This document shows, in pieces, positions 24,995 to 34,744 of a DNA stretch of 64,000 nt. The stretch covers positions 311,994 to 375,993 of the forward strand of contig NZ_CADFEN010000001.1 of assembly GCF_902833145.1 (NCBI RefSeq). Reading direction: 5' to 3'. Each line of letters opens with the position of its first letter. Position 1 is the stretch's first letter. Position numbers and translations under genes: made by a program. The stretch comes from Burkholderia sp. BCC0506. GTDB taxonomy: Bacteria > Pseudomonadota > Gammaproteobacteria > Burkholderiales > Burkholderiaceae. The notes beneath the pieces were generated by a model. The model made no database searches, was not told the origin of the DNA, and saw only the letters and a program-made list of their open reading frames with translations.

Positions 24995-26173
24995 GTGGGC
25001 AACAGAACCATTCGATTCGCATTTTTCCTGTGCGGGTTTGCGGCATTTCTCAATCTTTATTCGACTCAGGGCATCCTGCACGAGCTCGCCGCGGCATTCG
25101 ACGTAAGCGCCGAACAAGCCGGCCAGGGCATCAGCGCCACCACGTTGGCGGTCGCCATTATCGCTCCGTTCGTCGGCGCGCTGGCCGCCCGCTTCGATCG
25201 GCGGACGGTCATTTCGTGCGCCGCCGTGGCGTGCGCGCTTCCCGTTCTCTGGTCGGCGCACGCGGCGAGCTTTTCATCGTTCCTCGCTGCGCGCTTTGCC
25301 GCGGGCATGCTGATGCCGTTCATCTTCGCGATCTCGATCGCCTGCATCGGCGAGAACTTCAGCCACGACGCGGCGACGGAAGTCAGTGCGCTCTTCGTCG
25401 CCGGCACGACACTCGGCGGATTCGCCGGGCGCTTCGTGACCAATACCTTGACGTCCGCGTTCGGCTGGCGTCACGCGCTCGACGTCATCGCGTTCCTGTG
25501 TCTCGCAACGGGCGTCGCGATCCACGCGTGCCTGCCGGCGTCCGGCGCCGCGCGGCCGCATGACGAGGGCGCATCGACGCCGCGCTGGAAGCGCTTGACG
25601 CACGGCCCATTGCTCGCGTCGTTTCTGGTCGGCGCATGCGTGCTCGCATCGCAGGTCGCGACGTTCACCTTCGTCGGCTTGCGACTGGCCCGTGCGCCGT
25701 TTGGCTTCGATACGGTCGAGATCGGCGCGATCTATGCGGTATTTCTCGTCGCGGTCGTCGTCACGCCGCTCGCCGGGCGCGTCGCGGCGCAACGTGGCCC
25801 GCGCGACCTCGCCCTTGCGGCGACCGGGCTCGCGATCGTCGGTGCGTTGCTGACGCTGTCGGGCAGTGTCATCGCGATCCTGACCGGGCTCGCGCTCAGT
25901 TCGACCGCGGTGTTCGTCGAGCAGGCGTCGGCCAATGCGTTCATCTCGCGGGTGGCACGGGATGCAAGATCGACGGCGATCGGCATTTACCTTTCCTTCT
26001 ATTACTTTGGCGGAAGTCTCGGCTCGGTCTTGCCCGTTCCTGCCTGGAATCGCTGGGGCTGGCTGGGCTGCGTCGCATTCGTCGTCGGTGCGCAGGCGTG
26101 CGCCGGCGCGCTCGTGTTTTTCTTCTGGCGGGCGACGCCGGCCGCCGACGCTGCTCGCCCGAAGTCAGGCTGA
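24995..26173 (+). CDS. MFS transporter
   Basis: A 392-aa twelve-helix transporter of the YnfM/NepI-like drug:H+ antiporter type: FLNLYSTQGILHELAAAFDV in the first loop, GALAARFDRRTVI (motif A) and AGMLMPFIFAISIACIGENF in helix 4. The start is GTG 24995, just before the first helix, with only a weak upstream ribosome site. Its 3' end overlaps the convergent ATP-grasp gene by nine bases. With the neighbouring LysR gene it could export the product of the ligase cluster to its right, though this is context only. Confidence 0.87.
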   Translation: MGNRTIRFAFFLCGFAAFLNLYSTQGILHELAAAFDVSAEQAGQGISATTLAVAIIAPFVGALAARFDRRTVISCAAVACALPVLWSAHAASFSSFLAARFAAGMLMPFIFAISIACIGENFSHDAATEVSALFVAGTTLGGFAGRFVTNTLTSAFGWRHALDVIAFLCLATGVAIHACLPASGAARPHDEGASTPRWKRLTHGPLLASFLVGACVLASQVATFTFVGLRLARAPFGFDTVEIGAIYAVFLVAVVVTPLAGRVAAQRGPRDLALAATGLAIVGALLTLSGSVIAILTGLALSSTAVFVEQASANAFISRVARDARSTAIGIYLSFYYFGGSLGSVLPVPAWNRWGWLGCVAFVVGAQACAGALVFFFWRATPAADAARPKSG

Positions 26174-27373
26174 CTCGGTAGTCGATTTCAACTCACCGCG
26201 CTCGGCGGCCGAGCCCGCGTCGTCCGCCGCACCGTGCACAACCGGCAACGCAACCCGCACATAAAGAAACGCGCGCCGTTCGCGATCGGGCAGTACTTGC
26301 GGCCCGTAGTTGATCCTGAGCACCCCGTCGTCGATCTCGCCGGCCTGCGCGAAACGCCACGCACCGGGATCGCTGTCGAGCAGGAATTCGGCGCGCGCAT
26401 ACGCGTGCGGCTCGAACAGCTCGGGGATCGTCACCGTCTTTCCGTCGAGCTTGTCGAGCAACGCTTCGACCACGTTGAAGCCGTAGCCGTCGCGCACGAT
26501 GTCGCAGATGAAGCTGCCCGCGATGCGCGGATTCAGCTCGATCACGTGCGGCACGCCGTCGTGCACGATGCAGTCGAGATGCACGGGCCCCCACGTGAGC
26601 CCGGCGGCGGCCGTCGCCTGCGCGCCCACGTCGATCAGCGCGCGCAGCGTGTCGGCGTCGAGATCGAGTTCCGACGTGTACCCGCGTTCGAGAAAACCGG
26701 CGCCATGCCGTTTCAGCTTGCGCAACGCACCGACGTAGCGGCCGTCGAAATACTCGACGCAGTATTCGCTGCCTTCCAGGAATTCCTCGACGACGACGCG
26801 TTCGGTCGCAAGCGAGGGGGCGTCGGCCTGCACGGCGGCGAGCGCGTCGAGCTGCGCACGCACGGCGGCGATGTCCTCGCAGCGGCGCACGCCGTCGCTC
26901 GCGGAGCCTTCCGACGGTTTGACGACGACCGGAAAGCGCAACGGGGCGGCCGCGGCCGCGAGCGCCGCCGGTGCGGCCAGCGTACCCGCGACGAATTGCG
27001 CGGCCGGGATGCCGTGCGCGGCGAGCAATGCCTTCTGGTTCGACTTCGACACCGCGTGCGCGACGTTCCGGGCATCGGGGCCGGGCAGCCCGAGCGCGTC
27101 GGCCACCCAGGCCGCGGTGCGCGCATAGGTGTCGTGCGCGGTCGTCACGCGCAGCGTGTCGAGTTCGTCCGCGAAGCGCGCACGCAGCCAGCCGGCGAGC
27201 GGGCCGGCGTCGGGTGCGAGGTTGACGGTCTCGACGCCGTCGGGAAACACGCCGTCGAGACGGTGGCCGGGCGCGGTGATGACGGTCACGGCCACCTGGC
27301 GCGCGAGGGCGGCGCGCACCAGCGCGACGCTGCTGCCCGTGGCGCGTGCGCCGATCACGATGAGTCGCTTCAT
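26165..27373 (-). CDS. ATP-grasp carboxylate-amine ligase (first of two)
   Basis: A 402-aa ATP-grasp enzyme that would activate a carboxylate as acyl phosphate and join it to an amine. Visible are the N-terminal pre-ATP-grasp Rossmann-like segment (MKRLIVIGARATGSS), the ATP-binding VVKPSEGSASDG with Lys152, the EEFLEGSEY segment at 196-204, and the metal-binding IELNPRIAG with Glu279 and Asn281. It is not a recognisable PurK, carbamoyl-phosphate synthase or D-Ala-D-Ala ligase. Relatives include L-amino-acid ligases that make dipeptides or siderophore amides. The gene precedes the BASS-like transporter on the transcript's far side: that gene ends 37 bp upstream of its start. Confidence 0.85.
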   Translation of the reverse strand: MKRLIVIGARATGSSVALVRAALARQVAVTVITAPGHRLDGVFPDGVETVNLAPDAGPLAGWLRARFADELDTLRVTTAHDTYARTAAWVADALGLPGPDARNVAHAVSKSNQKALLAAHGIPAAQFVAGTLAAPAALAAAAAPLRFPVVVKPSEGSASDGVRRCEDIAAVRAQLDALAAVQADAPSLATERVVVEEFLEGSEYCVEYFDGRYVGALRKLKRHGAGFLERGYTSELDLDADTLRALIDVGAQATAAAGLTWGPVHLDCIVHDGVPHVIELNPRIAGSFICDIVRDGYGFNVVEALLDKLDGKTVTIPELFEPHAYARAEFLLDSDPGAWRFAQAGEIDDGVLRINYGPQVLPDRERRAFLYVRVALPVVHGAADDAGSAAERGELKSTTESA

Positions 27374-27410
27374 GATGGATCCTTGATCGAGGGCGGAAGA
27401 AGAAAGCCGG

Positions 27411-28355
27411 CTAGCGTGCGCGCCTGCGCAGGCGCTGGGCTTCGAGGCGCGGCAGCAGATGCTGGACGACGCGCGGCAGCGTGTAGATCGGCAACTGCGC
27501 GCATGCGAATACGAGCGCCATGGTCGGCGTCGCGGCCAGCCCGAGCGCGGCCCACATCAGCCCGACGTTGCGATTGGCGACGATCAGCGCGACGTTCAGG
27601 CGCGTGCGGACGTCGCCGGGCGTGAGCCCGTACGCGACGATCTGGAAGCCCGCGTTGACGGCGAACGCGAGCGCGATTGCGGTCAACGCACGGTGCGGGG
27701 CGTCGACGATCGACTGCTGCATGCCGGCCATCGTGCCGAGCGCGAATATCAGCAGCGCGACGACGACGATCGCGTCGATCGGCGTTGCATGGCGCGCGAG
27801 CCGTGCGCCGGCAAAGCGCCGCACGAGCAGCGCGACACCCTCCGCGCTGCCGATCAGCAGCGCGAGCCGCAGCGCGAGGCTCGACGGCGAGATCGACACC
27901 GCCGCGTCGTGGCTGAACCACGCGGTCAGCAGCGGTGCGGTCAGCGGCACGAACACCATCGATGCGAGGGTCGCGACGAGCGCGACACTGGCGTCGAGCG
28001 ACAGCATCCGCGCGATCGTCGACGTGCCGCTCGACGGCGGCGCGCAGTACGCGATCACCAGTGCGACGACCCAGTCGTACGGCAGGCCGGCGAGCCGCGC
28101 GGCGATGCCGAGCGCGACCGGGCACGCGATCATCGTCATCGCGGGCAGCAGCAGCGACACGGCGGGCCGCCGCGCCACCGCGCGCACGGCGCTCGGCTCG
28201 ACGCGCAGCAGCGTGCCGAGCACGAACAGGAACACGGTAACGGGCATCAGCGGCCGCGCGACGTCCGCGAGCGGCGGCACCAGCAGCCCGAGGCCGACGC
28301 CGCACGCGAGCACGGTCGGGCCCCGCCGCACGAGCGCGGCGATCAGTGCTCGCAC
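27411..28355 (-). CDS. Bile acid:sodium symporter-family transporter
   Basis: A 314-aa polytopic inner-membrane protein of the BASS/arsenical-resistance-3 fold, with about ten hydrophobic helices in two pseudo-repeats. The polar AYCAPPSSGTSTIARM in one half and VANRNVGLMWAALGL in the other correspond to crossover-region motifs. It is the first gene of a minus-strand pair with the ATP-grasp ligase and diverges from a LysR gene. BASS relatives move organic anions with sodium; here uptake of a precursor or export of a product is possible (inference). Confidence 0.8.
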   Translation of the reverse strand: MRALIAALVRRGPTVLACGVGLGLLVPPLADVARPLMPVTVFLFVLGTLLRVEPSAVRAVARRPAVSLLLPAMTMIACPVALGIAARLAGLPYDWVVALVIAYCAPPSSGTSTIARMLSLDASVALVATLASMVFVPLTAPLLTAWFSHDAAVSISPSSLALRLALLIGSAEGVALLVRRFAGARLARHATPIDAIVVVALLIFALGTMAGMQQSIVDAPHRALTAIALAFAVNAGFQIVAYGLTPGDVRTRLNVALIVANRNVGLMWAALGLAATPTMALVFACAQLPIYTLPRVVQHLLPRLEAQRLRRRAR

Positions 28356-28519
28356 GGGCGCACCTCAGGCTGGCGACGAGCGGGAGTGAAGTCGAAACAG
28401 GCGGCGGACGGCATGCGGATTCCTTGGACGGGGCGGCAGCACGGAATACGCGCTAGGCTAATCCGGATGATGAGCGAAGTAAAATGATATAAACTGAATC
28501 GGTAACGAGAGAAAATGAT

Positions 28520-29395
28520 ATGAACATCCCTTTGCTCGAAACGTTCCGGGCCGTCGTGCAGGAAGGCAGCGCGTTGCGCGCGGCCGAACGGCTCGGCTGC
28601 ACGCAATCGAACGTCACGGCGCGGCTGCGTCAGCTCGAGGAATCGCTCGACGCGCCGCTGTTCGACCGGCACGGCAAGCGGCTGGTGCTGAACGATGCCG
28701 GGCGTCGGCTGATGCCGTATTGCGACCGCATCCTGCGTCTCGTCGACGAAGCGACGCAGGTGGTGCGCGACACGCCGGTGGCCCGCAGCTTCCGGCTGGG
28801 ATCGATGGAGAGCACGGCCGCCACGCGGCTGCCGGCGCTGGCCGCCGCGCTGAAAGAGCGCGATCCGGCGCTCGGCCTCGTGGTACAGATCGGCAGCGAG
28901 CCGGATCTGGCCGACGCGCTGCTGCGCGGCCGGATCGACGCGGCGCTCACCGCACGCGCGGTCGTGAGGCCCGGGCTGCGTTACGAGCCCGCGTTCGCGG
29001 AAGACATGGTGCTGGTGAGCGCGGCGACCGTCACGCGCCGGCAACTGCTGGCCGACAACACGGTGCGCCTGCTCGCGTTTCACGACGGCTGCCCGTATCG
29101 CGCGGTCGCGGAGCACTGGCTGAAGGCGCGCGGCGTCGCGATCGAATCGGTGTCGTCGTTCGGCACGTTCGGCGCGATCCTCGGCTGCGTGGCGGCCGGA
29201 ATGGGCGTCGCGATCCTGCCGAAGCGGATCACGGTCGAACACGTGGCGCGCAAGGAGCTGCGCACGCATGCGTTCGACGATCTCGACAGCGTGACGACCT
29301 ACCTCGTCACGCCCGACGAAGCGCCGGCCTTGCCCGAACTCGACGCGTTGCGCGCGGTGCTCGGCCGGCAGGCGGGGGCGCTGCTCGCGCGCTGA
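28520..29395 (+). CDS. LysR family transcriptional regulator
   Basis: A 291-aa LysR regulator: LLETFRAVVQEGSALRAAER, LGCTQSNVTARLRQLEESLD, LFDRHGKRLVLNDAGRRL. It lies between the two ATP-grasp transcription units, divergent from the transporter-ligase pair and convergent with the second ligase (18-bp gap), so it is the likely pathway regulator. The ten-base sequence AAAATGATAT occurs twice upstream, at 28481-28490 and 28512-28521, the second overlapping the start codon; this could be a regulator-binding repeat. Confidence 0.9.
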   Translation: MNIPLLETFRAVVQEGSALRAAERLGCTQSNVTARLRQLEESLDAPLFDRHGKRLVLNDAGRRLMPYCDRILRLVDEATQVVRDTPVARSFRLGSMESTAATRLPALAAALKERDPALGLVVQIGSEPDLADALLRGRIDAALTARAVVRPGLRYEPAFAEDMVLVSAATVTRRQLLADNTVRLLAFHDGCPYRAVAEHWLKARGVAIESVSSFGTFGAILGCVAAGMGVAILPKRITVEHVARKELRTHAFDDLDSVTTYLVTPDEAPALPELDALRAVLGRQAGALLAR

Positions 29396-29413
29396 CACGA
29401 GTACGCGGCGGCC

Positions 29414-30682
29414 CTATGCCGGCGCGACCGCACGTTCATCCGCGAAGAAATCGGCCTCGATTTCGCGAATCCGCCGGCAATCCTCGAGCAGCCGCTCGAA
29501 CGTCGGGCTGTACAGGCCGACCGTGCCGAGCGCCGTCTGCAAGTCGGTGGTCACGCGCAGCGTGTCGCCGACCTTGATCCACTGCTTGAGGCCGACGAAC
29601 GACGGCAGCGCCTCGATCGCCTGCCACGTGAAATCCTGCCGCAGCACGCCGTTGCGCGATGACAGCAGCAGCACGTGCCCGCAGTATCCGCGGAAATCCG
29701 TCGGCGCGGTGACGTCGCCGAACAGGCGCTCCGGATGCAGCACCGCTTCGACCGTGGCCGACACGTGATTCTCGCCGCTGACCGCGCTCGTCAGCCGCGG
29801 ATCGAGACTGCCGTGCAGCCGGGCGTTCAGCTCGACGATCGTCGGGCCGTCGGCCGTATCGAACAGCTCCAGATGGGTCGGCCCGAAACGCACGTCCAGC
29901 GCGTCGAGCACGTCGGCCGCGTAGTCGAGCAGCGGTGCGTAGCGCGGGTCGGCATGGTTCAGCACCAGCATCTTGTCGAGCCGCGGCGCGTGCGTGCGAT
30001 CGCGATGCACTTCCCACAGGCTGACCACGCGATGGCGGCCCTCGAACGACACCGAATCGACGATGTATTCCTGCCCCTCGGAATAGTGCTGGATCACGAT
30101 GTCGTCGTTCGGCTGGTTGTACAGCGACCGGGTGGCCAACACGTCGCGCGCGGCGGCCTCGACCTGCGCGAGCGTCCGGCAGATCTTCACGCCGGCCACA
30201 CCCGCGCTGCGCGCCGGCTTCACGACGAGCGGCAGCGTGCCCTGCGCGCGCGCCCAATCGAGCGTTTCATCGACCGACGTGCTGTGGAAGTGCGCCGGCG
30301 CGCGCAGCCCGGCCTGGCGAATGCGTTCGTTCATCGCGAACTTGTCGCGGCGCGCGGCGGAGGTCGCGAGCGGATTGCGAAACGGCACGTCGAGCCGTTC
30401 GGCCAGCGTGTCGGCCAGCTCGAGCGCCGCGTCGAGGCCGTGCAGCACCGCGCCGATCCGCAGGTCGCTCAGCTGCGCGAGCGTCGCGTCGATGTCGCCG
30501 CGATGCTGGACCTGGCGGATGTAGTCGGACGGCACGAACTGGTTCCGGTAGATGTCCGGCAGATCGGGATCGCTGATCACATGCGCGCAACGGATGCCGT
30601 ATGCGCGAAACGCGGGGGCCAGGTAGGCGGCGGTCGACGCGCCGTCGACGATCAGGACGGTATCGATGAAGCGATGCGGCAT
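29414..30682 (-). CDS. ATP-grasp L-amino acid ligase-like enzyme (second of two)
   Basis: A 422-aa ATP-grasp ligase distinct from the one at 26165. It has the ATP-binding VVKPARSAGVAGVKICR with Lys155 in the glycine-rich-loop style of BacD-type L-amino-acid ligases, a QHYSEGQEYIVDSVS segment at 198-212, and the metal-binding triad region FGPTHLELF (Glu272) and IVELNARLHG (Glu284, Asn286). Such enzymes make alpha-dipeptides or peptide-like amides without NRPS. The start ATG 30682 has GAGGA at five bases. It lies 53 bp downstream of the DHA2 exporter gene on the same strand, suggesting coupled synthesis and export. Confidence 0.87.
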   Translation of the reverse strand: MPHRFIDTVLIVDGASTAAYLAPAFRAYGIRCAHVISDPDLPDIYRNQFVPSDYIRQVQHRGDIDATLAQLSDLRIGAVLHGLDAALELADTLAERLDVPFRNPLATSAARRDKFAMNERIRQAGLRAPAHFHSTSVDETLDWARAQGTLPLVVKPARSAGVAGVKICRTLAQVEAAARDVLATRSLYNQPNDDIVIQHYSEGQEYIVDSVSFEGRHRVVSLWEVHRDRTHAPRLDKMLVLNHADPRYAPLLDYAADVLDALDVRFGPTHLELFDTADGPTIVELNARLHGSLDPRLTSAVSGENHVSATVEAVLHPERLFGDVTAPTDFRGYCGHVLLLSSRNGVLRQDFTWQAIEALPSFVGLKQWIKVGDTLRVTTDLQTALGTVGLYSPTFERLLEDCRRIREIEADFFADERAVAPA

Positions 30683-30735
30683 GGATTCCTCGCTCGGATG
30701 GGGGATCGGTTGAAGGATGTCAGGGGGCAGCGTGC

Positions 30736-32178
30736 TCAGGCCCGCGTGCCGGTAGCAGGTGTGTCGCGAGGCCAGCGCGCGGCCAGCGCGATACAGATCG
30801 CGACGAGCGCGGCCGCGACGGCGAACGCGCGCGCCGCGCCGGCCACGATTGCCGCGCCCTCGCCGGCGACCAGCGCGCCGAGTGCCGCGACGCCGATCGC
30901 GGCACCGACCTGGCGCGCGGTATTGAGGATCGCGGACGCGGTGGCCGAGCGGCCGGCCTCGACGCTGCCGAGCATCGTCGACGTCAGCGCGGGAATCGCG
31001 ATCCCGCCGCCGATCGCCATCGCCGCGAGCCCGGGCGCGAGCAGCACGTACGGCGTGTGCGCGGCGAGCGTCTGCCACAGCCACGCGTAGCCGGCGAGCG
31101 ACACGGCAAGGCCGACGATGACGGTCGCGCGGAATCCGTAGCGAACCGCGAGCCGTGCGCTCGCGATGTTGGCGAGCATGATGATCGTGAGCGGCGCGAG
31201 CGCGAGCCCCGATTCGGTCGCCGTGAAGCCGCGCGCATTCTGGAAATAGACGCTGAGCGAGAAGATCAGCCCGTAGAACGCCGCATTCGTGACCGCGCCG
31301 ATCGCGAGCACCCCCGGCACGCGCGCGATCCGGAAGAACGCGAGCTGCAGCATCGGCGCGGGCACGCGCCGCTCGATCGCGACGAACGACGCGCCGAGTA
31401 AGACCGACGCGATCAGCGCGCCGGCCGCATACGGGTCATCCAGTCCGTGCGCGCCGGCCCGGATGATCGCGCCCGTCAGCAGACCGAGCACGAGCACCGC
31501 GACGATCTGGCCGGCCGGATCGAACAGCCGCGTGCGCGCGGCGGCCGAATCCCGCACGTGGCGCAGCGTGAGCCAGAGCCCGAGCGCACAGATCGGCAGG
31601 TTGATGAAGAAGATCGCGCGCCAGCCGAGCGAATCGATCAGCAGGCCGCCGAGCGTCGGCCCGGCCGCGCTGATCGCGCCGCCCGTCGCGCTCCACCACG
31701 CGACGGCCTTCACGCGCGCGGCGGTATCGTCGGCGCAGGCATGCGTGATGAGCGCGAGCGACGTGGGCAGGATCATCGCGGCGCCGACGCCTTGCGCGAC
31801 CCGCGCGACGATCAGTGCCGCCAGCGACGGTGCGAGCGCGCAGCCGAGCGACGCGAACAGGAACAGCGCAAGACCGTATGCAAACAGCCGGCGGCTGCCG
31901 AAGCGGTCGGCCAGCGTGCCCGACGTCAGCAGCAGCGCGGCGAACGACAGCGTGTACGCATCGACGATCCATTGCAGCCCGTGGACGCTCGATCCGAACG
32001 CGTGACCGAGGCTCGGGATCGCGACGTTGACGACGGTCACGTCGAGCTGGACGATCGCGAAGCCGAGGCTCGCGGCCGCGACGGTTGGGAAGAGGGCGCG
32101 CAGCGACGTGCGGGGCGATTCCGCGGTGGCGGTCGGTGCACGGTCGACGCGGTCGAGGGCCGGGGCGCGATCGCTCAT
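30736..32178 (-). CDS. MFS transporter, DHA2 (EmrB/QacA, 14-helix) family
   Basis: A 480-aa drug:H+ antiporter-2 type exporter. The first helix carries QLDVTVVNVAIPSL (motif D1), followed by QWIVDAYTLSFAALLLTSG and LADRFGSRRLF (motif A); about fourteen hydrophobic helices are present. It is transcribed with the ATP-grasp ligase downstream and diverges from the 2-oxoglutarate oxygenase. Pairing of a DHA2 exporter with a dipeptide-type ligase is the usual arrangement for self-resistance and export (as for bacilysin BacE; here inference). Confidence 0.9.
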   Translation of the reverse strand: MSDRAPALDRVDRAPTATAESPRTSLRALFPTVAAASLGFAIVQLDVTVVNVAIPSLGHAFGSSVHGLQWIVDAYTLSFAALLLTSGTLADRFGSRRLFAYGLALFLFASLGCALAPSLAALIVARVAQGVGAAMILPTSLALITHACADDTAARVKAVAWWSATGGAISAAGPTLGGLLIDSLGWRAIFFINLPICALGLWLTLRHVRDSAAARTRLFDPAGQIVAVLVLGLLTGAIIRAGAHGLDDPYAAGALIASVLLGASFVAIERRVPAPMLQLAFFRIARVPGVLAIGAVTNAAFYGLIFSLSVYFQNARGFTATESGLALAPLTIIMLANIASARLAVRYGFRATVIVGLAVSLAGYAWLWQTLAAHTPYVLLAPGLAAMAIGGGIAIPALTSTMLGSVEAGRSATASAILNTARQVGAAIGVAALGALVAGEGAAIVAGAARAFAVAAALVAICIALAARWPRDTPATGTRA

Positions 32179-32585
32179 CGCGGCTTCCGGTGCGTGCGGG
32201 ACGTGCAGGACGTGCGGTGCGGCAGGCGGTATCGATGCATTCTGGCGGGTTCCCGTATGGCGGATGAAGGAAGCCGGCTGCCCGTCGGGCAGCCGGCCGC
32301 ATCGTCGAATCCGACAGAAAACTAGCATCGACCCGTTGGCGAATACAAATAATAAGCAGCGATTTTTTAACAAGTATTCGTGTTAAAGGGCGGTGCAAGG
32401 GACGTGAACCGGTTCCTTCCGCATTGCTGAACATATATCGATAATTTTCGTTTGCAATCGAATTAATATCATTTCGCAATGCAATGACGGTCTCCTAGTC
32501 TTGTCGAGCGCTTCGCCCCGAGGACGGCGGCGCGCGGCGGCGATGCCACGCCGCTCTTCGAACCGGATTTTTATACGAGAGACCT
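32179..32585. promoter_or_regulatory. Divergent, AT-rich promoter region of ligase cluster
   Basis: A 407-bp gap between the exporter and the oxygenase genes. Its middle, about 32330-32480, is far more AT-rich than its surroundings. It contains an inverted repeat TTAACA-N8-TGTTAA at 32367-32386 that could be an operator for the nearby LysR protein. The oxygenase gene has a GAGAG ribosome site. No gene is supportable here. Confidence 0.45.
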
Positions 32586-33707
32586 ATGACCTATCTCGCA
32601 GATGCACGCATCGCTTTGACGGCAGCGGAATCCGCTCATATCCGCAAGACGCTCGGCGCGCTGGATTACGACCCGGCCGGCGGCGCAGGCTACATCAGCG
32701 CAGTCCGCAAGCTGGCCTACAACGCGTTTCCCGACCGGATCGTCGACGCATTCGACCGGGCGAAGGCGCCGACCGCGGACGCGCACGGCTCGATCGAGAT
32801 CGACAACCTGCCGATCGACGGCGACGTGAACGGCAGCCCGCGGTTCGAGGAAACCGGCCGCTCGTTCAAGGCCGGCGTGCTGAGCGAGAACGTGCTGGTT
32901 GCGCTGAGCACGCTGGCCGGCGAACCGTACTCGATCGCGCACGAGGGCCGCGAGCTGGTGAACAACCTGACGCCGCACAAGGCGACCGCGCGCGACTATA
33001 CGGGCCTCGGCTCCGAGGTCGAGCTCGACTTCCATATCGAGAACGCCGCGCAGGCGCACATGCCGGAAGGCGACACGTCGCCGTTCGCGCTGCTGCTGCT
33101 CGGCGTGCGCAGCGAGGCCGGCGGCGGCCCGTACACACGGCTCGCCGATGCGCGCCGCGCGCTGCAACTGCTGTCGCCAGAGGACATTGCGCAACTCTAC
33201 GGCGAGCACTACATCATTCGCGTGCCGTACCGGTGGCGCGGCGCGGCGCCGACGCCGCGCGACAACACCGACCTGAGCGCCGTGCTGTCGGGCCCGCTCG
33301 ACGCGCCGCGCGTGACGGTCGCGTTCTATCCGGACATGGTGCTGGCGGTCAACACGCGCGCGCAGGAAGCCTTGGCTAACCTGTATCGCGCGGTGCGCGA
33401 GGTGTCGTTCGGCGTGCAGGTGTCGCCGGGCAAGCTGGTGCTGATCAACAACCACTTCACGCTGCATTCGCGCGACCGCTTCGATCCGCAGTACGACGAA
33501 AACGACCGCGCGTTCCGCTGGGTACAGCGCGTGTTCGTCGCGCGCAGCCTGTGGAATTTCCGTGCGTTCACGCCGCTGCAGGCGCGCGTGTTCGATCCGA
33601 AGGCGCTGTATGCGGGCGAGTCGGCGCAGGCGAGGCATCCGTCGCATGCCGTGCAACCGGCGCCGCAGCGTGCGGCGGCGGTCGATCTCGAAGCGACGCC
33701 TGCGTGA
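32586..33707 (+). CDS. Fe(II)/2-oxoglutarate oxygenase, clavaminate synthase/asparagine oxygenase-like
   Basis: A 373-aa TauD/TfdA-superfamily dioxygenase of the clavaminate-synthase, VioC and AsnO type, which beta-hydroxylate or desaturate free amino acids such as arginine or asparagine. The facial triad is visible: HIE with His150 and Glu152, and the distal His294 in INNHFTLHSRDRF; a 2-oxoglutarate-anchoring arginine follows in RWVQRVFV (Arg315). The GLGSEVELDFHIENA segment is typical of the subgroup. It is the first gene of the plus-strand unit, divergent from exporter and ligase. It probably hydroxylates an amino acid that one of the ligases condenses (inference). Confidence 0.88.
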   Translation: MTYLADARIALTAAESAHIRKTLGALDYDPAGGAGYISAVRKLAYNAFPDRIVDAFDRAKAPTADAHGSIEIDNLPIDGDVNGSPRFEETGRSFKAGVLSENVLVALSTLAGEPYSIAHEGRELVNNLTPHKATARDYTGLGSEVELDFHIENAAQAHMPEGDTSPFALLLLGVRSEAGGGPYTRLADARRALQLLSPEDIAQLYGEHYIIRVPYRWRGAAPTPRDNTDLSAVLSGPLDAPRVTVAFYPDMVLAVNTRAQEALANLYRAVREVSFGVQVSPGKLVLINNHFTLHSRDRFDPQYDENDRAFRWVQRVFVARSLWNFRAFTPLQARVFDPKALYAGESAQARHPSHAVQPAPQRAAAVDLEATPA

Positions 33708-33718
33708 TCGCCCCGGCG

Positions 33719-33756
33719 GGGCGGCGGCCGGCGCCGAACGCTGCCGGCCGCCGCCC
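33719..33756 (+). terminator. Strong 14-bp hairpin after the oxygenase gene
   Basis: A perfect inverted repeat with 14-bp arms (GGGCGGCGGCCGGC at 33719-33732, partner 33743-33756) and a 10-base loop, located 11 bp after the oxygenase stop and 46 bp before the binding-protein start. There is no T-run, so it may attenuate or protect the 3' end of the oxygenase message rather than fully terminate. Confidence 0.5.
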
Positions 33757-33802
33757 GTGCCCGCTTCAAGCATCCTCGAACAAAGACAGGATTCCACAAG
33801 AC

Positions 33803-34744
33803 ATGAGAAGAACCGCCTTTCCCGCCGCCCGCATGGCCAGCTTGCTGGCCGCCTGGCTGATCGCCGGGAGCGCCGTCGCCGCGCACGCCGCATCGTTCGA
33901 CCTGAGCCCCGAGCAGCCGGCCCGGCAGCGCGGCACCGTGAACCCGGCGGTCGAGCAGGCGTTGCCGGCCGGCTTCCGGTTTGCCGAAGCGAACACGCTG
34001 ACGATCGGCATCGCGCCGAACCTGCCGCCGCTCAGCACCTATGCGACCGACGCGCGCACGGTGGTCGGCTTCGATCCCGATCTCGCGCAACTGATCGCGG
34101 ACAGCATCGGCCGCAAGCTGAAGATCGTGCCGCTCGCATGGGCCGACTGGCCGCTCGCGCTGCAGTCGGGCAAGGTCGATGCGGTGATCTCGAACGTGAC
34201 GGTGACCGAGCAGCGCAAGGAGAAGTTCGACTTCTCGACCTACCGGAAGGACCAGCTCGGCTTTTACGTGAAGACCAACAGCAAGCTCGCCGCGATCCGC
34301 GAGCCGAAGGATGTCGCCGGGCTGCGCGTCGTGACCGATTCGGGCACGAACCAGGAAAAGATCCTGCTCGAATGGAACCGGCAGAACGTCGCGCGCGGCC
34401 TCGCGCCGGTCGAGATCCAGTATTACGCGGATGCGGCCGAGCGCTGGGTTGCGCTGCAGTCGGGCCGCGTCGACACGATCTTCAGCGTGAATTCGATGCT
34501 CGCGTACCAGGCGTCGCTGCGCGGCGATGCGAAGCTGATCGGCACCGTCAGCGGCGGCTGGCCGCGCACCGCGGATATCGCGATCACGACGCGCAAGGGC
34601 AGCGGCCTCGCCGAGCCGCTGACGCTCGCGATCAATGCGCTGATCGCGAACGGCAGCTACCGGAAGGCGCTCGATCACTGGCGGCTGGAGGCCGAGGCGA
34701 TCGACCGGTCGCAGACCAATCCGCCGGGGCTGCCGCGCACGTGA
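33803..34744 (+). CDS. ABC transporter amino acid-type substrate-binding protein (orphan)
   Basis: A 313-aa periplasmic solute-binding protein of family 3. The first 30 residues are a cleavable signal peptide (basic start, then MASLLAAWLIAGSAVAAHA). The amino-acid-binding hallmarks VVGFDPDLAQLIADSIGRKL, VDAVISNVTVTEQRKEKFDF and KDVAGLRVVTDSGTNQE are present. No permease or ATPase genes are nearby, so it must borrow a transporter or act as sensor. It lies 95 bp after the oxygenase, separated by the strong hairpin. It may capture an amino acid precursor. Confidence 0.88.
   Translation: MRRTAFPAARMASLLAAWLIAGSAVAAHAASFDLSPEQPARQRGTVNPAVEQALPAGFRFAEANTLTIGIAPNLPPLSTYATDARTVVGFDPDLAQLIADSIGRKLKIVPLAWADWPLALQSGKVDAVISNVTVTEQRKEKFDFSTYRKDQLGFYVKTNSKLAAIREPKDVAGLRVVTDSGTNQEKILLEWNRQNVARGLAPVEIQYYADAAERWVALQSGRVDTIFSVNSMLAYQASLRGDAKLIGTVSGGWPRTADIAITTRKGSGLAEPLTLAINALIANGSYRKALDHWRLEAEAIDRSQTNPPGLPRT

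Follow-up and report, generated by a model that had tools for sequence, protein, structure and literature searches.

A conserved four-gene core with two ATP-grasp ligases and an Fe(II)/2OG oxygenase in Burkholderia and other genera: a predicted NRPS-independent oligopeptide pathway

A core of four genes, oxy, DHA2, ligA, and ligB, is shared by Burkholderia and several other genera, and it probably encodes an NRPS-independent oligopeptide pathway in which an oxygenase oxidizes an amino acid, two ATP-grasp ligases join residues, and a DHA2 protein exports the result. What was observed of the core is which genes it contains, that they are intact, that catalytic residues are conserved, which folds are predicted, and that the genes are inherited together. 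It lies within a 64,000-nucleotide stretch of DNA (the window), located on contig C1 of a 7.29 Mb Burkholderia genome. The first-pass annotation of this DNA had proposed an NRPS-free pathway built on two ligases; that finding is real and is now better supported than it was from sequence alone, by the conservation of the unit, the family and fold of the ligases, and the lack of condensation domains near the locus (the six matches in the genome are all on contig C5). A solute-binding protein (SBP) has to be removed from the proposed set, the BASS and LysR genes are optional, the substrate can be sharpened to a likely acidic one, and the product is still a prediction. The features of the locus are as follows.

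26165..27373, minus strand: ligA, ATP-grasp ligase with an L-amino acid ligase fold (open reading frame, Pfam, fold)
27411..28355, minus strand: BASS/SBF-like transporter, accessory (PF01758, 23.9 bits, cut-off 24.3)
28520..29395, plus strand: LysR regulator, accessory (PF00126, PF03466)
29414..30682, minus strand: ligB, ATP-grasp ligase of the PRK07206/DdaF type (NF005543, 308 bits, cut-off 302)
30736..32178, minus strand: DHA2 major facilitator exporter (PF07690, 166 bits; TIGR00711 EmrB, 201.5 bits, cut-off 230)
32479..32585, plus strand: 5' leader of oxy, strongly conserved, possible cis-regulatory element (91% mean column identity)
32586..33707, plus strand: oxy, clavaminate-synthase-like Fe(II)/2OG amino-acid oxygenase with a G6-type pocket (TauD, 39.6 bits, cut-off 27)
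33803..34744, plus strand: family-3 solute-binding protein, a Burkholderia-only neighbor and not part of the core (PF00497, SBP_bac_3)

All seven genes named in the first-pass annotation are open reading frames where it had placed them, with three gene starts refined relative to the first list of reading frames. In a comparison with two other Burkholderia loci, each of the seven has a dN/dS between 0.05 and 0.26 and 0 internal stops. At the DNA level, the block 26165-34744 is 93.6% identical to a large secondary replicon in Burkholderia cenocepacia, 91.9% in B. arboris, and 91.0% in B. pyrrocinia, where the match covers 87% of the block, and related loci are found on "chromosome 3" in Burkholderia sp. 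MS389 and B. anthina; on these sequence grounds the locus is taken to belong to the third replicon of a genome of the Burkholderia cepacia complex. The first six genes stay together in B. pyrrocinia while the flanks differ and the SBP is a distant fragment 6 kb away, so the boundary of the unit can be drawn at 26165-33707.

Searching a collection of 84,980 species, each represented by a single genome, with a profile of seven oxygenases yielded 48 loci; the scan was built on two short peptide patterns, so divergent relatives of oxy are missed. By tblastn, oxy, DHA2, ligA, and ligB occur together in 21 of the 24 loci with an oxy of 60% identity or more in the best piece, and in none of the 24 loci below 60%. 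Co-occurrence of both ligases with the oxygenase in other genomes, on which the first-pass annotation had let its proposal depend, thus extends to six genera: twelve loci are from Burkholderia, five from Variovorax, and one each from Paraburkholderia bryophila, Robbsia andropogonis, a Pantoea, and Erwinia aphidicola. The three exceptions are B. lata, which lacks ligA, BASS, and LysR; Trinickia soli, which has oxy alone, with one stop codon; and Candidatus Burkholderia humilis, in which oxy is fragmented (72% in the best piece). Still counted among the 21 are B. arboris, with a split ligB, and a metagenome-derived Variovorax locus with two genes in pieces. Judged by their sequences, the loci of B. 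lata, B. arboris, Trinickia, and Candidatus Burkholderia humilis look decayed. Among the loci below 60%, three from Legionella have a distant ATP-grasp protein (25-26%). Among 299 genomes of the family, obtained as sample draws, ligB (E <=1e-60) is present in 20, all of which have oxy, and oxy (E <=1e-150) is present in 21, the sole one without ligB having an internal stop codon. The set is also carried by annotated plasmids of Rahnella sikkimica, Pantoea agglomerans, and Pantoea alfalfae. In these Rahnella and Pantoea plasmids the operon continues with a third ATP-grasp protein, a PLP enzyme of aminotransferase fold, and an NtaA/DmoA flavin monooxygenase; in Rahnella, the one of these tested, where ligB is annotated shorter than elsewhere, the first is PRK02186-like, the second matches PRK07505 (whose relatives are alpha-oxoamine synthases), and the third scores above the NtaA/DmoA cut-off.

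Trees and identities from 11 related loci show that the core genes have been reassorted among loci and appear to have different histories. Gene order within the core varies between genera. The oxy of Robbsia clusters with Burkholderia and Paraburkholderia (support 0.63), its DHA2 is nearest to Variovorax (69-72%), and its ligB is closer to Variovorax by identity (73-76%) and stands beside Pantoea and Erwinia in the tree, outside the Burkholderia clade. For Burkholderia ligA, the closest relatives are in Variovorax (61-64%; support 0.67) and not in Paraburkholderia (48-49%). The four functions look like a unit because they are kept together despite changing order and relatedness. LigA is the most variable of the four genes, and the identities of ligB and DHA2 run in parallel (r 0.98 over the 11 loci, a value that is not a significance test); it is a reasonable inference from these sequences that ligA determines a residue that varies and that the exporter is matched to ligB. 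Co-inheritance of the core genes is, however, not proof of a common product.

The two ligases are dissimilar, as the first-pass annotation had said, and Pfam, family models, and fold agree that both are ATP-grasp enzymes. ATP-grasp_4 is found in both (61 and 39.5 bits, cut-off 27), and ligA and ligB account for the two above-threshold matches among the three that PF13535 has in their own genome. Known L-amino acid ligases are the closest to them in a fold comparison, in which the known ligase RizA falls among unrelated ATP-grasp enzymes; both are predicted to be of the L-amino-acid-ligase type, with ADP-forming peptide bond synthesis. In the PDB, ligB matches an L-amino acid ligase (30vh, E 3e-52). 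LigB reaches 212 bits against the DdaF model NF041595, far under the cut-off of 840 that defines membership. For ligA, which has no close characterized relative, the best family match is the ATP-grasp part of PRK02186 (143 bits, cut-off 625), and the BacD model for alanine-anticapsin ligase, NF053745, gives 20.9 bits against a cut-off of 850.

The predicted model of oxy has the overall fold of clavaminate-synthase-like Fe(II)/2OG amino-acid oxygenases, with low confidence in the active-site loop. The H150-x-E152...H294 triad reported earlier is present, and H294 is kept in all 21 of the 23 oxygenases with a PYRWR motif whose alignment reaches that position. With residue roles taken from the part of PMC6224419 available and positions mapped by our own alignment, oxy carries the triad (H150, E152, H294), the 2OG Arg (R311), the alpha-carboxylate Arg (R315), and the alpha-amine Glu (E120). 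Our alignment of oxy to AsnO and CmnC places P214, Y215, R216, A246, and Y248 at pocket positions P12-P16. This corresponds to the group G6 signature, which a 2018 paper gives, in the part consulted, as "PYRA/V" at P12-P15 with Tyr at P16 (PMC6224419). P-Y-R-A-Y occupies P12-P16 in 10 of 10 cluster members tested; PYR and Y248 are kept in all 18 sequences of a wider alignment, with A or V at P15, and PYR is absent from four more distant oxygenases (L059, L062, L061, and L121). Two of these, L059 and L062, are in glutamate-mutase-like loci that were considered as the same system; they probably represent a different one, since their oxygenases are 26-29% identical and are without the PYR motif. 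G6 substrates were predicted to be Glu- or Asp-like from models only, as far as the same partial source goes (PMC6224419). The substrate of oxy is probably a free L-amino acid with an acidic side chain, a reading based on that one paper's model-based prediction and on residue alignment.

For the core we infer the substrates, step order, product, regulation, and biological role as follows. Oxy would act on a free L-amino acid, probably an acidic one, and oxidize it, most likely by beta-hydroxylation. LigA and ligB would then use ATP to make one amide bond or two, and the resulting di- or tripeptide, with the oxidized residue in it, would be exported by the DHA2 protein. The scheme follows the pattern of mangotoxin and phosphonoalamide synthesis. 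LysR may regulate the set in Burkholderia and Variovorax, and BASS may move an anionic precursor or product. The biological role would most likely be that of a small antimetabolite. The step order may be reversed, because the mangotoxin oxidase MboA acts on a finished tripeptide, Leu-Ala-Arg in the portion of the report seen (PMC13185094); in that case the ligases would join unmodified amino acids and oxy would oxidize the completed peptide. This order is unlikely, since oxy retains two residues of free-amino-acid oxygenases, the Glu for the alpha-amine and the Arg for the alpha-carboxylate, and the best structural neighbors of its model are amino-acid oxygenases, several of them solved with free Lys, Arg, or hydroxyasparagine bound.

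The remaining genes are less constant than the core. BASS and LysR, counted by the first-pass annotation as members of the compact set, are present in it but are accessory and not universal across loci: of the 13 named Burkholderia loci 12 have BASS, as do the Paraburkholderia locus and two of the five Variovorax loci; each of the five Variovorax loci has a LysR homologue (46-49%) oriented divergently to oxy; and neither gene is detected by tblastn at E 1e-5 in the Robbsia, Pantoea, or Erwinia loci. The orphan amino-acid binding protein, also counted as a member, does not belong there. It adjoins oxy in each of the 18 Burkholderia loci that the family scan covers (the window and 17 others, L036-L052) and in all 13 named Burkholderia loci of the genome-collection scan, but the loci of Paraburkholderia, Robbsia, Pantoea, Erwinia, and Variovorax were searched without finding it next to oxy, and it was therefore rejected as a core gene. 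The oxy leader has a mean column identity of 91% in 23 Burkholderia sequences. It matches no Rfam family at gathering score, has one base pair with double-sided changes (covariation), and has an ordinary folding energy (z -0.5); a 23-base piece of it (1 N, <=3 mismatches) occurs once in its own genome. From its sequence the leader is a possible cis-regulatory element, a structured RNA or riboswitch being the form considered. Three Variovorax loci have an extra downstream protein, which in the one tested is weakly M14 zinc-carboxypeptidase-like (18.7 bits, cut-off 21.6). On either side of the Paraburkholderia locus are genes for sulfonate ABC transporters, for a taurine-dioxygenase-like protein, and for a luciferase-like monooxygenase; sulfonate chemistry was considered for the system on this account and set aside, these flanks being from one genome only and not noticed in other genera.

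Oxygenases with the same pocket are also found without ligA and ligB, where the neighboring gene encodes an auxin-efflux-type carrier, an amidohydrolase, or an MFS protein, so a PYR-A-Y pocket does not by itself imply peptide synthesis. In two Pseudomonas loci a 50%-identical oxy occurs with a BASS homologue (45-46%) and an amidohydrolase or amidohydrolase-like gene (called by Pfam in L092 and by eye in L093). This arrangement, together with the genes flanking the Paraburkholderia locus, would suit uptake and breakdown of an amino-acid-like compound, with the ligases detoxifying or conjugating it and DHA2 as a resistance pump. Such a role is improbable, more so than the reversed step order: the core is without a hydrolase, lyase, or transaminase, and two ATP-spending ligases with an exporter would suit synthesis better. 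That the ligases are unrelated housekeeping enzymes beside oxy by chance is very improbable even though ATP-grasp is a huge superfamily (the Pfam search is positive in 12 of 14 control genomes), and is already contradicted by four genes staying together in six genera despite differing order.

If the oligopeptide pathway is correct, it gives a biological context to G6 oxygenases with a predicted acidic-amino-acid pocket and adds a compact route to small peptides from an oxidase and two ligases. A broader and more tentative extension, perhaps one chance in three or a little better, is that G6 oxygenases hydroxylate or further oxidize Glu, Asp, or a sulfonate analogue, and that two exchangeable ligases and a matched exporter turn the result into small acidic peptides, an unrecognized antimetabolite class of beta- and gammaproteobacteria to which the Pantoea and Rahnella plasmids may add a third ligase, an alpha-oxoamine-synthase-like enzyme, and a flavin monooxygenase. 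Clusters of this kind are without NRPS or ribosomal markers; in a Pantoea study, as seen in part, four known small antibiotic clusters for the most part went undetected by genome-mining tools (PMC7744662). The hypothesis is directly testable with a few purified proteins.

Identity with a described Pantoea product (PNP-1 to PNP-5, pantocins) is unlikely, in a comparison of descriptions rather than sequences. The gene list of published PNP-1 differs from the set described here in the part of the paper available (PMC4010436), and PNP-3 is described, in a similarly partial account, as 8 genes over 8,487 bp in Pantoea only (PMC11350110), whereas the operon here has 7 genes over about 8.9 kb and is also in Rahnella. 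No description of the combined oxy, DHA2, ligA, and ligB set was recognized in the open-licence literature, represented mostly by titles and the beginnings of abstracts. The earlier comparison to bacilysin or dapdiamide holds as an analogy only: ligB is related to DdaF, but the remaining pathway genes were not found in the set. The dapdiamide system likewise combines an Fe(II)/2OG oxygenase with stand-alone ligases (PMC12568646), and ligB falls in the wider DdaF family; however, according to the accessible part of the literature, dapdiamide synthesis involves an amide synthetase, DdaG, and a substrate tethered to an NRPS, and ligB is not within the DdaF cut-off. Oxy resembles AsnO, VioC, and KDO in predicted fold, iron triad, and alpha-amine and alpha-carboxylate residues, but their pockets, as partly described, are acidic for Arg or Lys, or PPSD in AsnO, in contrast to PYR-A-Y (G6) in oxy. 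Phosphonoalamide synthesis also uses two distinct ATP-grasp ligases, PnaC first and PnaB second, to make a dipeptide followed by a tripeptide, the N-terminal residue being a special one; this residue is phosphonoalanine, formed by PepM and a transaminase, and the portion of the account available mentions no dioxygenase (PMC11867202). Mangotoxin is the worked-out case. Its oxidase, as the available part of the report describes it, is a diiron enzyme of the heme-oxygenase-like type that has a redox partner, in contrast to the Fe(II)/2OG oxygenase here, and its pathway has an arginine deiminase, which this set is without; what the two share is an oxidase with two ATP-grasp amino-acid ligases, which in mangotoxin yield a tripeptide toxin without an NRPS (PMC13185094).

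The 107 nucleotides before oxy, the gene of the clavaminate-synthase-like oxygenase, are strongly conserved, with 91% mean column identity in an alignment of 23 Burkholderia sequences. Pairing of GGTCTC with GAGACC is predicted within this leader, and the likely ribosome binding site would fall under the pairing; folding energy gave no support for RNA structure in the leader and covariation barely supports it. The leader and the other regions with coordinates are as follows.

Window 32479-32585: oxy leader, based on sequence conservation in Burkholderia
L117/L118/L119 8989-17929: extended version of the cluster on enterobacterial plasmids
L081 1-14224 (the L053 region): core cluster with flanks, Paraburkholderia bryophila
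L059 7971-15541 and L062 9462-15755: loci with a distant oxygenase, neighbours judged by eye

Beyond the core, the plasmid version carries genes for a third ATP-grasp protein, a PLP enzyme resembling alpha-oxoamine synthases, and a monooxygenase of the NtaA/DmoA type. In Rahnella (L117), a short gene similar to that of methionyl-tRNA synthetase is found some 4 kb upstream. In P. bryophila, the core cluster is flanked by genes for sulfonate ABC transporters, for a protein resembling taurine dioxygenase, and for a luciferase-like monooxygenase. Several separate pieces were matched per oxygenase gene in Candidatus Burkholderia humilis (L109) and in Bartonella (L107, L110, L111, L113-L116), and these genes look as if they are decaying.

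The distant oxygenase of L059 and L062 adjoins putative genes for glutamate mutase subunits, aspartate kinase, and aspartate-semialdehyde dehydrogenase, and the L059 locus also has an ATP-grasp protein. Parallel designs combining an oxygenase, an ATP-grasp protein, an MFS transporter, and an Asp/Glu racemase occur in Legionella species (L094, L095, and L106; Pfam-tested in L094) and, with an additional tRNA-ligase-like protein, in Pantoea sp. JZ29 (L121).
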